From Anaerolineales bacterium (GTDB lineage Bacteria; Chloroflexota; Anaerolineae; Promineifilales; Promineifilaceae), in the NCBI GenBank assembly GCA_020432765.1, contig JAGRDI010000205.1:1-32997 (forward strand): a stretch of 32,997 nt of DNA, given 5' to 3'. The notes under the pieces were generated by a model. It was not told the DNA's origin and did no database searches. It saw only the letters and a list, made by a program, of their open reading frames with translations. Position numbers and translations under genes: made by a program. Positions 17,427 through 21,845 of this stretch are shown piece by piece; the stretch's first letter is position 1; the number at the start of each line of letters is the position of its first letter.

Positions 17427-17861
17427 ATGAGTCGAGTAATAAATACTGATAGTCCCACCAAACGACGTAACCGCAGTCGGCGCACAATTGCCGAACTGCT
17501 GCGACGTTTGAGCATGAAGGCCACTATTGATAACGATGCTAAAGATATGGCAGCCACGATTGTATATGCACTGCGTGAGATTGAGGATGGCATCGAGCAA
17601 ACGGTAAGCGCATGGGAGAAACGCGACTATTGGATGAAAGCGGAACGTTTTAGTCGTGATTGGGATTGGGTTCAGGAAACGGCCGTGAATTTTGAAGATG
17701 TTTTGCGTCATGAAGCGTGGGATTTGTTGCCGGAATTGTTAGCTGATTTATTTCCGCGTTTCGCCGATATTCAAATTAAATCCATGACACGTAAACCAGA
17801 CACCTGGCAGGGTGCTTACGTTCTTTTGATGGCAGAACCGCCAACGGAATTGCCCTGGTGA
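17427..17861 (+). CDS. Conserved-looking hypothetical protein, 144 aa
   Basis: I do not recognise a named family. The N terminus is strongly basic (KRRNRSRRTIAELLRRLSMK), followed by helical acidic/aromatic segments (ALREIEDGIEQTVSAWEKRDYWMKAERFSRDW) and a C-terminal part ending AYVLLMAEPPTELPW. No signal peptide or membrane helix is seen. The basic start could bind nucleic acid or membrane phosphates; this is only a guess. It ends 4 bases before the first esterase gene, so it is probably co-transcribed with the two esterases. It has normal codon use and one ACGGCCGT copy, like its neighbours. Confidence 0.75.
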   Translation: MSRVINTDSPTKRRNRSRRTIAELLRRLSMKATIDNDAKDMAATIVYALREIEDGIEQTVSAWEKRDYWMKAERFSRDWDWVQETAVNFEDVLRHEAWDLLPELLADLFPRFADIQIKSMTRKPDTWQGAYVLLMAEPPTELPW

Positions 17862-17865
17862 TTTG

Positions 17866-18921
17866 ATGTGTAGGCGAACGGGTTGGATCTATTTTGCTGT
17901 GTGTGTGTGCGCATTTTGGAGTTTGATCAGTTGTACATCTGCTTTGCCCGGCACAGGCGGACAATCTGTATTTCCGCCTACAAGTACAACGCCGCAAGTT
18001 GTATCAAACGGGCAATCACAAACCCAGGTACTTACAGAAATACCTCTTCCTACCGCTGCACCGGACTTAAAGGAAATCAACCAATTATTCCCCTTTTTAT
18101 TTCCAACTCAAACTGCAACAGCAACGGCCGTTCCTACTCTCATCCCACTACCTTCTGCAACCCCCAAACGTTGTGCCACTCCTGGCCAAATGGTGACTGG
18201 TGCGATTGACAGCACGAATCCATATGCAGGCAGCATCGCTTATCGTGTTTACTTGCCACCTTGCTATGGTGCAGACGGCCGTTTCTATCCTACACTCTAC
18301 ATGCTGCCCGGCAACATTCATACCGACGCGATTTGGGATGAGCTTGGTATGGACGAAACGGCCGAAGCTGCTATTCTCAACAACACGATGCCCCCATTTA
18401 TAATTGTGATGGTTTCTGGCGGCTGGTTAGCTGATAACACTTCTGGCGGTGTTGGTTCTTACGAACAATTTTTTATGGAAGAACTAATCCCGGCCATTGA
18501 AAAGGCCTATTGTGCCTGGCCGGATAGGAGCGGTAGGGCGTTGGGTGGCATGTCACGTGGCGGATATTGGGCTTTGGAACTTGCCTTCCAATATCCTGAC
18601 CAATTTGGCAGTGTTGGCGGGCATAGCGCCTCACTCTATGATTTTTACGCTGGACCCGAAATAAATCCGCAATTCACTGGTGTGAATAATGCGTTAGGTG
18701 ATTTGCGAATCTATTTTGATATTGGTGAAAATGATGGTTACATGCCTAACATCCGCAGATTACATGAAGAAATGAGTGCGGCGGGCGTTGCGCATGAATG
18801 GGTCGTCAACGCTGGTTACCACGAAGATGCGTATTGGCGTGCACATACACCTGAATACCTGGCCTGGTATACAGCCCCATGGTCACGCGACCGCAATACG
18901 TATCCGCTTTGTGAGCAATGA
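17866..18921 (+). CDS. Lipoprotein esterase (PF00756-type alpha/beta hydrolase), first of a tandem pair
   Basis: The protein is 351 residues from the ATG at 17866 (a TTG directly before it is in frame). A lipoprotein signal ends in LISC (Cys23), followed by a Thr/Pro-rich spacer to about residue 100. The enzyme domain is of the esterase D / Fes type: YRVYLPPCYG, then YPTLYMLPGN, the nucleophile Ser in GGMSRGGYW, an Asp in FDIGENDG and a His in NAGYHEDAYW. Likely substrates are esters or acylated polysaccharides at the cell surface; the specificity is unknown. Several Cys residues are shared with the next gene (PPCYG, AYCAWP, YPLC), which suggests disulphides outside the cell. The stop overlaps the next ATG as ATGA. 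Confidence 0.88.
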   Translation: MCRRTGWIYFAVCVCAFWSLISCTSALPGTGGQSVFPPTSTTPQVVSNGQSQTQVLTEIPLPTAAPDLKEINQLFPFLFPTQTATATAVPTLIPLPSATPKRCATPGQMVTGAIDSTNPYAGSIAYRVYLPPCYGADGRFYPTLYMLPGNIHTDAIWDELGMDETAEAAILNNTMPPFIIVMVSGGWLADNTSGGVGSYEQFFMEELIPAIEKAYCAWPDRSGRALGGMSRGGYWALELAFQYPDQFGSVGGHSASLYDFYAGPEINPQFTGVNNALGDLRIYFDIGENDGYMPNIRRLHEEMSAAGVAHEWVVNAGYHEDAYWRAHTPEYLAWYTAPWSRDRNTYPLCEQ

Positions 18922-19985
18922 ATTCGATTTTGAAAAGTAAACAAAGCCTGGGGTTATTCCTATTGGTTTGTGGCATTATGTTATTTACAAGCTGCACAAA
19001 TGCCAATGTAGAATTGGCAAAGAGTGGCATCGCAGCCGCGACGACGGCAACTTTTATGCCACAGTTATCACTTTCTGCAACCTTGACACCAGTCCCACTT
19101 AGCCCCACTCCACTCGATATCACTTTGACACCCCTTTTCGACTTTGTTTTTCCGACGGCAACTGCAACACCTACCGTCATGCCCACATTAACCTCGACAC
19201 CTTTACCGCCCTGCACAGAGCCTGGCCACCTAACTGATGGAGTCGTGACATCTACATTGACCAAGGGGGGTGACATGGCTTATCGAATTTATTTGCCACC
19301 ATGTTATGGGCGTGACGGCCGTAGTTATCCCACACTCTACATGATCGCTGGCAACAATCAAGCTGCCGGTATTTGGGATTATTTGGGTTTGGATGAAGCC
19401 GCCGAGGAAGCGGTGTTGAAAGGGGAGATTCCACCTTATATTATTGTCATGGTTTCCAGCGGGTTACTGGCACTTACAACCAATGGTGGTCCAGGTTCCT
19501 ATGAACAATTTTTTATGGATGAGCTAATCCCCACGATTGAAGCTGATTATTGCGCCTGGCCTGATTCTACCGGTCGTGCGTTGGGTGGACTTTCGCGTGG
19601 CGGGTATTGGTCGTTGGAGATCGCCTTCCGTCATCCGGAGGAATTTGCCGGTGTTGGCGGACATAGTTCCTCATTATATGATTATTCGGCTGAACCAGAT
19701 GTCAATCCGCAATTTACTGGAGTGAACAATGAGTTGGGTGAGTTGCGTGTTTACATGGACATCGGCGAACAAGATATTGGCATTTATAACACACGCAAGC
19801 TGCATGAGGATATGGAGACGGCCGGTGTTGCACATGAGTGGGTTCTCAATCCAGGTTTACATGATCATCCCTATTGGCGTACCCATGTAAGCGATTACGT
19901 CGCCTGGTATGGCAGCCTTTGGTCGCATGATCGCGGTGCTTATCCACTATGCGATAAACCGGCGCCTGATGATTTCCAAAAGTAA
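18918..19985 (+). CDS. Lipoprotein esterase (PF00756-type), second of a tandem pair
   Basis: This is a 355-residue paralogue of the preceding gene; the hydrolase domains align over their whole length without large gaps. The lipobox is LFTSC (Cys26), followed by a Thr/Pro spacer (TPVPLSPTPLDITLTP). The catalytic set is preserved: Ser in GGLSRGGYW, Asp in MDIGEQD and His in NPGLHDHPYW. The two copies differ most in the signal and linker and near the loop VSSGLLALTTNGG. The ATGA overlap with the first copy points to coupled translation and tandem duplication. The C-terminal tail (KPAPDDFQK) is longer than in the first copy. Differing substrates are possible but not shown. Confidence 0.88.
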   Translation: MNSILKSKQSLGLFLLVCGIMLFTSCTNANVELAKSGIAAATTATFMPQLSLSATLTPVPLSPTPLDITLTPLFDFVFPTATATPTVMPTLTSTPLPPCTEPGHLTDGVVTSTLTKGGDMAYRIYLPPCYGRDGRSYPTLYMIAGNNQAAGIWDYLGLDEAAEEAVLKGEIPPYIIVMVSSGLLALTTNGGPGSYEQFFMDELIPTIEADYCAWPDSTGRALGGLSRGGYWSLEIAFRHPEEFAGVGGHSSSLYDYSAEPDVNPQFTGVNNELGELRVYMDIGEQDIGIYNTRKLHEDMETAGVAHEWVLNPGLHDHPYWRTHVSDYVAWYGSLWSHDRGAYPLCDKPAPDDFQK

Positions 19986-20047: not shown

Positions 20048-21118
20048 TTAATTGCGCTTATCTGTTCGCTTGCTGTACCAAATCAAAACTACAAAAATCA
20101 ACGCATACACCCCAATCCATAAAAGCAGTTTTGCTAGTTGTGATGGCACAAGTATGGCAATTAGACCGAATACGGCCGTTACCACATAATATCCCACCAC
20201 AATTGTGCGCGTAGGCACGCCTTGATCCGCCAGCCGAAAATGCAAATGTCCCCGATCCCCAACCAATGGGTTTTGGCCACGGCGCACACGCGAAATAATT
20301 TGCCAGGCTACATCAATAATGGGTACAGCCAAAACCAACAATGCTGTCGATAATTTTGCAGGTGACAATATCGACAATGTCGCCATTTGGTAGCCAATCA
20401 TATAAGCGCCTGCGGAACCAAGGAAAATACGAGCTGGGGCAAAGTTAAAAGGTAAAAAACCAAGCAGCGCAGCGGCTAAAACGAGGGGGAATAGGGCAAC
20501 GGCCGTTTGTCCCAAGCGGTAACTGTGCCAGGCAAACAACAATGCTGCAATCAAGGCCACGCCTGCTGCTAAGCCGTCCAGGCCATCCAGCCAGTTGATC
20601 GCGTTGATCATGCCTACGACCCAAAATAGTGTAAATAGAAGCGCCAAGGGCCGCCACAGCCAGACCAGATTACCATCAAGTGTCATAAACCAGGCGAAGG
20701 GAGGCATTGTCCAAAGTGCCACTGCTCCGGCCGGTGTTGTAAAAACTTCGATGAAAATGATGTGGCTCATGGCAATGACTGCCGCCACAATTTGAATGCC
20801 AAACTGCATCCAGGGCTTCAAATCATACCAATCATCTAGTAACCCACCAAACACAATCACAAGCGTTCCCATCACAACGCCGCGCAATCGGATGATGTCA
20901 TTGGTTTGGTCGGGTGGCAGCAGCCAATAGATTAACCCAATGCCGACCAGCCATGCCAAAACTAAAGCCAATCCCCCTAATTTTGGCATCGCTTCCGCAT
21001 GTTTGCGGCGTCCGCCCGGTGCCGCCACCACACCCCAGCGTAAAGATAGCCGCCGGGCCAGCGGTGTGATCAACAATCCACTCAAAAATGTGACGGCAAA
21101 AACCAGATAAAAGGGCAT
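20048..21118 (-). CDS. MraY/WecA-family glycosyl-phosphate transferase with altered catalytic motif
   Basis: The protein has 356 residues and about ten membrane helices. The family attaches a sugar-1-phosphate from a UDP-sugar to undecaprenyl phosphate, starting peptidoglycan, O-antigen or teichoic-type polymers. Conserved parts are APGGRRKHAEAMPKLGG (33-49), GGLLDDWYDLKP (D95, D96) and NWLDGLDGLAAG (175-186). The next motif should be F(M/L)GDxGS, whose Asp binds Mg2+ in MraY. Here it is IFLGSAGAY with Ser235 in the Asp position. The later HIHHRL-type motif reads HLHFRL. The codon is TCC, two changes from an Asp codon, so a single-base error does not explain it. It may be a diverged, differently acting or inactive member. 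It lies downstream of upp with a hairpin between. Confidence 0.85.
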   Translation of the reverse strand: MPFYLVFAVTFLSGLLITPLARRLSLRWGVVAAPGGRRKHAEAMPKLGGLALVLAWLVGIGLIYWLLPPDQTNDIIRLRGVVMGTLVIVFGGLLDDWYDLKPWMQFGIQIVAAVIAMSHIIFIEVFTTPAGAVALWTMPPFAWFMTLDGNLVWLWRPLALLFTLFWVVGMINAINWLDGLDGLAAGVALIAALLFAWHSYRLGQTAVALFPLVLAAALLGFLPFNFAPARIFLGSAGAYMIGYQMATLSILSPAKLSTALLVLAVPIIDVAWQIISRVRRGQNPLVGDRGHLHFRLADQGVPTRTIVVGYYVVTAVFGLIAILVPSQLAKLLLWIGVYALIFVVLIWYSKRTDKRN

Positions 21119-21205: not shown

Positions 21206-21826
21206 TTACGCGGTTCCGAATTGGCGGTCACCGGCATCGCCAAGACCGGGCACGATATACCCAATGTCGTTGAGACTATCATCAATTTTTGCAACATGAA
21301 TGGCGACATCTGGATGGGCACTGTGTAAGGTTTCGACGCCTTCAGGTGCCGCCAAAATACCTACAAATTTGATGCGTTCTGCGCCCCATTTTTTAAGGAT
21401 GTCTATTGTCGCAACGGCCGAACCCCCAGTTGCCAGCATCGGATCCAAAACCAGACAAACCTCAACCGTTGGGCTGGTGGGTAGTTTGTTGTAATAAGAG
21501 ACTGGTTTTAAGGTGCGTTCGTCGCGATAAAGCCCGATATGCCAGACTTCTGAACTGGGCATCATTTCCCAAATCCCCTCGACCATACCCAAACCCGCAC
21601 GCAAAACCGGAATAAGACCGATTTTATCGACTAATTCTTTACCATTGGCAGCACCCATGGGTGTTTCCACCATAACATCCTTTAGACCTAAATCAGATGT
21701 CGCTTCATAACAAAGTAACATCGCCAACTCACGTATTAATTCCCGAAATTTCTTTGGCTCGGTAGTTACATTGCGTAACAATGTTAATTTATGTTTTACC
21801 AGGGGGTGCTGTGACTCAAATACCAT
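21206..21826 (-). CDS. upp: Uracil phosphoribosyltransferase
   Basis: This protein of 206 residues salvages uracil by joining it to PRPP to make UMP. The PRPP loop is [17 protein letters not shown], and the uracil-binding end is [17 protein letters not shown], both family hallmarks; VPVLRAG-type wording is present as [11 protein letters not shown] start at the ATG 21826 because AAGGAG lies 8 bases before it; the frame opens with a TTG at 21832, which is rejected. The MraY/WecA-like gene follows on the same strand, but a hairpin separates them. In many bacteria upp is paired with a uracil permease; none is seen here. Confidence 0.96.
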
Positions 21827-21845
21827 CCTCAATTCTCCTTTGGGT

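Follow-up and report, generated by a model that had tools for sequence, protein, structure and literature searches.

The window analysed here, 32,997 nucleotides of an Anaerolineales bacterium contig, encodes a PF00953 protein (P0001) that has Ser235 in place of the Mg2+-binding aspartate of its superfamily and Gln105 in place of the catalytic lysine. The change at residue 235 is a family trait of Chloroflexota proteins, and the same two residues are absent from the sole MraY in each of two genomes of one Chloroflexota family. On the strength of the sequence comparisons below, we consider it probable that P0001 is an active phosphoglycosyl transferase of the WecA/TagO-like kind, whose metal/phosphate site has been remodelled and is charge-neutral.

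MraY, WecA/TagO and DPAGT1 start the synthesis of peptidoglycan, surface glycans and N-glycans, respectively, and are antibiotic or toxicity targets. The roles of the Asp and the Lys in these enzymes are disputed: in DPAGT1 the D252N mutant exceeds the wild type in activity, and the DD pair, traditionally regarded as the metal site, is non-essential. A natural family without both residues, together with the same change in a mur-operon MraY, amounts to an evolutionary double-mutant experiment, and it makes the question directly testable. We found no earlier report of natural Asp-less PF00953 members in the open literature.

The window gene and its active-site residues

P0001 is a PF00953 member both by profile (E 8e-34, 117 bits, curated cut-off 27) and by fold: its AlphaFold model (pLDDT 82.6) matches solved structures of MraY (E 2e-10) and DPAGT1 (E 5e-9) in Foldseek, with no other significant match. 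Its motifs read GGLLDDWYDL, NAINWLDGLDG, RIFLGSAGAY and GDRGHLHFRL. A sequence-only reading of this DNA had placed a Ser at the Mg2+-binding position, and HMMER alignments with solved MraY chains bear this out, since Ser235 aligns with the Asp of FMGD; no Asp or Glu stands near Ser235 in that alignment as an alternative 'true' residue, and a frame or alignment shift that hides another Asp is thereby ruled out. The same reading rightly regarded the DD and NxxDGxDG motifs as normal. It also rightly read the last-loop motif as HLHF, in which the first two His are present and the third is Phe; but residue 294 varies across the 67 sequences of the variant family (Phe in 28, His in 24, Leu in 6, Tyr in 5), and a link between loss of the third His and the Asp/Lys change is ruled out by the 24 of 67 variant sequences that retain His there. 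The loss of the lysine was added by the present analysis: Gln105, ten positions beyond the leading Asp of the DD pair, stands where DPAGT1 has K125 and BsMraY K116.

Coordinates of the features discussed (window positions, except for the last row)
Feature	Position	Strand	Basis
PF00953 polytopic phosphoglycosyl transferase-like gene (P0001), 356 aa, S/T-type, WecA/TagO-like	20048..21118	-	ORF and PF00953 match
Codon 235, TCC (Ser), at the Mg2+-binding Asp position (DPAGT1 D252, BsMraY D231)	20414..20416	-	HMMER alignment, codon reading
Codon 105, CAG (Gln), in place of the catalytic Lys (DPAGT1 K125, BsMraY K116)	20804..20806	-	Alignment; residue numbering from PMC6218659, PMC5039524
Codons 95-96, Asp-Asp pair (DPAGT1 D115/D116)	20831..20836	-	0.99 conserved in variant family
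Codons 175-181: N175 (DPAGT1 N185, Mg ligand), D178, D181	20576..20596	-	N175 and D178 invariant, D181 0.90 in variant family
Codons 291-294, HLHF, His motif in last cytoplasmic loop	20237..20248	-	H291 invariant, 294 variable in variant family
upp, uracil phosphoribosyltransferase, directly upstream of the transferase gene, co-directional	21206..21832	-	PF14681 E 5e-74; synteny
MraYs without Asp and Lys (L262, L265, L272)	G201:C12:165698-166654; G113:C14:21977-22915		

The closest known counterparts are WecA, TagO and Rfe, the polyprenyl-phosphate GlcNAc-1-P transferases of PF00953. The variant family resembles them in fold, length, the DD, NxxNxxDGxDG and HxH motifs and a upp-linked locus, and its nearest Asp-type orthologues are of the WecA/TagO kind. 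It departs from them in having Ser, Thr or a short loop for the Mg2+ Asp and Gln, Leu or Asn for the catalytic Lys, and P0001 scores 120 bits against the NCBIfam model for ECA WecA (TIGR02380), below the cut-off of 326. P0001 shares superfamily and fold with MraY, but it has neither the HHH motif nor the MraY loop, lies beside upp rather than in a mur operon, and comes from a genome with a canonical MraY of its own. DPAGT1 (Alg7), the eukaryotic GlcNAc-1-P transferase, is alike in fold and in N185, which corresponds to N175, and its D252N mutant demonstrates tolerance of a neutral residue; unlike P0001, it retains Lys125 and Asp252. For a protein that lacks these two residues, both regarded as catalysis-defining, the name GlcNAc-1-P transferase is a working hypothesis, and the annotation 'Mg-dependent GlcNAc-1-P transferase' should not be transferred unread to the Chloroflexota proteins.

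The window gene is under purifying selection. Its dN/dS against the closest relatives is 0.08-0.13 for pairs with computable dS, and the range across all computable pairs is 0.05-0.17, both rough values with dS near saturation.

Distribution and genomic setting of the variant

Among 80 related loci, all 33 from Chloroflexota (L005-L036, L041) carry Ser or Thr at position 235 or a loop shortened by one residue, and relatives in Clostridia, Deltaproteobacteria and Eremiobacterota keep Asp. A phylum-wide sample combined with fetched regions extends the variant to 67 sequences from many Chloroflexota families, with Ser in 34, Thr in 22 and a gap in 11 at residue 235, and Gln in 60, Leu in 3 and Asn in 3 at residue 105. 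Asp is kept in families f23 and f33 (Chloroflexia-like, as we infer the class name) and in MraY. A sequencing or assembly error at codon 235 is thus ruled out, as the alignment of homologues suggested by the sequence-only reading shows Ser or Thr to be common to close Chloroflexota relatives and to the wider family. The broader notion that error, or drift in a decaying copy, accounts for the serine has a negligible probability, given dozens of independent genomes with Ser/Thr, an intact frame and dN/dS well below 1.

In a tree of 127 sequences, calculated with columns 105 and 234-238 left out, sequences of the variant type and of the Asp type cluster strongly, and at least four changes are needed; the AU test does not reject a single variant clade (p 0.32).

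The family has several subgroups. In L090, L092, L095, L105, L110, L163 and L164 the loop after FxG is one residue shorter (FLGSGA, FMGGGA, FLAGGA), so that no residue clearly replaces the Asp. A Caldilineaceae-type subgroup (L025, L027, L029, L030, L034, L035, L041) reads LDGLSG, with the second Asp of DGxDG also changed to Ser. Another (L166, L178, L179, L183, L184, L187, L188, L190, L192, L195, L196, L199, L201, L203) reads LDTMDG or LDVMDG and mostly HLPH. In most members the gene belongs to a cluster in which it follows two epimerase genes (PF01370), a TIM-barrel gene and a PF02719 gene (CapD/WbpM-type), as in L187; a WecG/TagA gene (PF03808) adjoins it in L178 and L203, and an LCP gene (PF03816) in L183. 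WbpL-type transferases pair with WbpM/CapD dehydratases, and the position of L187 directly after a PF02719 gene is similar; the window gene is without such a neighbour. Domain fusion was considered for the long ORFs L165, L192 and L110 and set aside, because by eye the added stretch resembles either low-complexity sequence or unrelated sequence that happens to be in frame.

Both the window and most close relatives have upp immediately before the transferase gene and in the same direction, as judged from neighbourhoods read by hand, and atp genes occur near both a variant (L162) and an Asp-type (L161) member in other lineages. The upp/atp locus is thus common to variant and Asp-type Chloroflexota orthologues of the WecA/TagO-like kind. 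Three PF00953 members are found in Asp-type genomes (G078, G110, G214, G150, G061, G166) and equally in S/T-type genomes; where sequences were read, the trio consists of an MraY, an LDNMDG-type protein with Asp, and one or the other form of the upp-locus gene. The same three-member set at the same locus implies that the variant replaces the Asp form rather than being an added copy. In the window, a pair of neighbouring PF00756 esterase genes (17863-19985), whose N-terminal regions are rich in Thr and Pro, looks like a tandem duplication, and a 144-aa ORF with no Pfam match (17427-17861) is conserved beside the esterase and GlgC-like genes at 8 loci from several relatives.

As to other members in the same genomes, a canonical second enzyme, which the sequence-only reading had proposed to look for, does exist: the window genome holds the Asp-type proteins L001, L003 and L004, of which L003 is the canonical MraY, and it has nine PF02397 matches, so that the window gene could be redundant. 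Most S/T-type genomes whose sequences were read also have Asp-type members. The S/T type is the only non-MraY PF00953 member in G031, G123, G139, G155, G081, G173, G209, G201 and G113; as the genomes are MAGs, of which some show 6-8% contamination, it is not certain that further members are absent. The monotopic family PF02397 is missing from G139 and G031 as well, and LCP proteins are present in G139.

Joint loss of the lysine and the aspartate

Across the aligned sequences, Lys, Arg or His at 105 is paired with Asp at 235 in 102 of 102 cases, and Gln, Leu or Asn at 105 with a non-Asp residue in 69 of 71. When the 67 variant sequences are compared with 35 Asp-type WecA-like sequences, the most divergent columns are 235, which is divergent by construction because it defined the two groups, and 105, which is not. 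There is no general relaxation of catalytic residues: only 105 and 235, and 294 in part, have changed, and D95, D96, N175, D178, R277 and H291 stand at 0.99-1.00 within the variant group. Within the WecA-like family the co-loss is a strong association; it does not prove repeated loss, because the variant may be one clade that dates from a single ancient event.

A separate instance comes from MraY. In two genera of one Chloroflexota family (G201 and G113, family f49), the PF00953 set consists of the S/T type and one MraY only, and that MraY has FMGG and IRAQLLWQ, i.e., Gly for the Asp and Gln for the Lys. The two MraYs are 56% identical, and all 28 other aligned Chloroflexota MraYs have both residues. 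The gene lies in an rsmH-murF-mraY-murD-murG-murC-murB-ddl locus in G201 and is followed by a murD-like gene in G113, and both genomes contain PBPs/transpeptidases and SEDS proteins. If these organisms make peptidoglycan, an MraY without either residue should be active. As far as sequence can tell, the f49 MraY is an independent replicate of the Lys/Asp loss, seen in two MAGs with completeness of 96% and 94% and contamination of 8% and 6%. Both MraYs also have Gln for Pro at position 40 and Arg for Met before the HHH motif.

A possible charge-neutral site and its alternatives

In the structure of DPAGT1, D252 and Asn185 complete the Mg2+ shell, D115 bonds K125, and K125 contacts the lipid phosphate (PMC6218659). 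N185A leaves 1.2% of activity and K125A, K125E and K125Q less than 2.2%; D252A leaves 7%, and D252N is 5-fold above wild type (PMC6218659). The statement of the sequence-only reading that changing this Asp abolishes activity is therefore too strong. In BsMraY, the residues named as important for catalysis include K116 and D231, D98 has been proposed as the base, and active-site mutants still bound nucleotide (PMC5039524).

Under the reading that we favour, P0001 would take a HexNAc-1-phosphate-type group from a UDP-sugar, pass it to polyprenyl phosphate and so start a surface glycan. The comparisons show that a negative metal ligand (Asp, now Ser, Thr or a short loop) and a positive residue at the lipid phosphate (Lys, now Gln) have been exchanged as a pair, with the fold and the other catalytic residues kept; the two may be removable together because net charge is preserved. 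Asn175, waters and the diphosphate of the UDP-sugar would then hold Mg2+, possibly with help from the Ser/Thr hydroxyl or from the invariant Asp95; the latter may be free to help because its counterpart D115 bonds the Lys in DPAGT1, and the Lys is absent here. Gln105 may contact the lipid phosphate through hydrogen bonds, and Asp95 may act as the base. The shortened-loop members and the Gly of the f49 MraY suggest that no specific ligand at 235 is obligatory.

We favour a functional enzyme because of purifying selection, the retention of the other catalytic residues, the genomes in which the variant is the sole non-MraY member, and the MraY with the same double loss. The case is weakened by the near inactivity of DPAGT1 K125Q and by the importance of K116 and D231 in BsMraY. 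Two other explanations have to be weighed. In one, the protein would be a pseudoenzyme that has lost its chemistry and still binds UDP-sugar or polyprenyl phosphate, as a regulator, scaffold or lipid handler, with priming left to Asp-type members. The absence of two residues needed in the tested enzymes, the nucleotide binding of BsMraY active-site mutants (PMC5039524), and the Asp-type members in the window genome and in most S/T-type genomes read would all agree with this. We nevertheless think it unlikely: nine genomes have no other non-MraY member, N175, D178 and H291 are still invariant, the same double change recurs in G201, whose only MraY lies in a complete mur operon, and the PF02719, WecG/TagA and LCP neighbours of one subgroup point to glycan priming. 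The 'inactive paralogue' of the sequence-only reading thus fares poorly on both counts, since selection and the retained residues disfavour inactivity, and the conserved upp locus and the unchanged three-member set leave 'paralogue' unsupported.

A slightly less likely possibility than the pseudoenzyme is an active transferase with a different UDP-sugar or acceptor lipid, in which the Lys/Asp change would be part of a substrate switch. The contact of the lost Lys with the lipid phosphate in DPAGT1 (PMC6218659) is in keeping with this, as are two subgroups, one whose genes neighbour sugar-modifying ones (PF01370, PF02719) and whose motifs are altered to LDTMDG and HLPH, and one with LDGLSG. The same change in the MraY of an ordinary mur operon, however, suggests that no change of substrate is needed, and the family occupies the upp locus of ordinary WecA/TagO-like genes. 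Among the three options that the sequence-only reading had offered, 'another metal arrangement' fits best, i.e., the charge-neutral site preferred here.

A more general proposal is that Chloroflexota enzymes dispensed with the Lys/Asp pair as one charge-neutral unit and stayed functional, at least twice, in the phylum-wide WecA-like family and in the essential MraY of one family, giving a new metal site; we would put the chances of this at about even. An implication is that the picture of catalytic needs in the MraY/WecA family may be incomplete, and that the Chloroflexota enzymes, if built in this way, might differ in their response to nucleoside inhibitors, which make contact with the Asp in other members.

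Finally, some proteins outside the variant family differ at the lysine position. The two exceptions to the pairing of Gln, Leu or Asn with a non-Asp residue are the Clostridia TagO-like proteins L059 and L069, which keep the Asp and have Gln at the Lys position, and which may represent an intermediate state. The Asp-type Chloroflexota proteins L181, L189, L191 and L193 have His at the catalytic Lys position.
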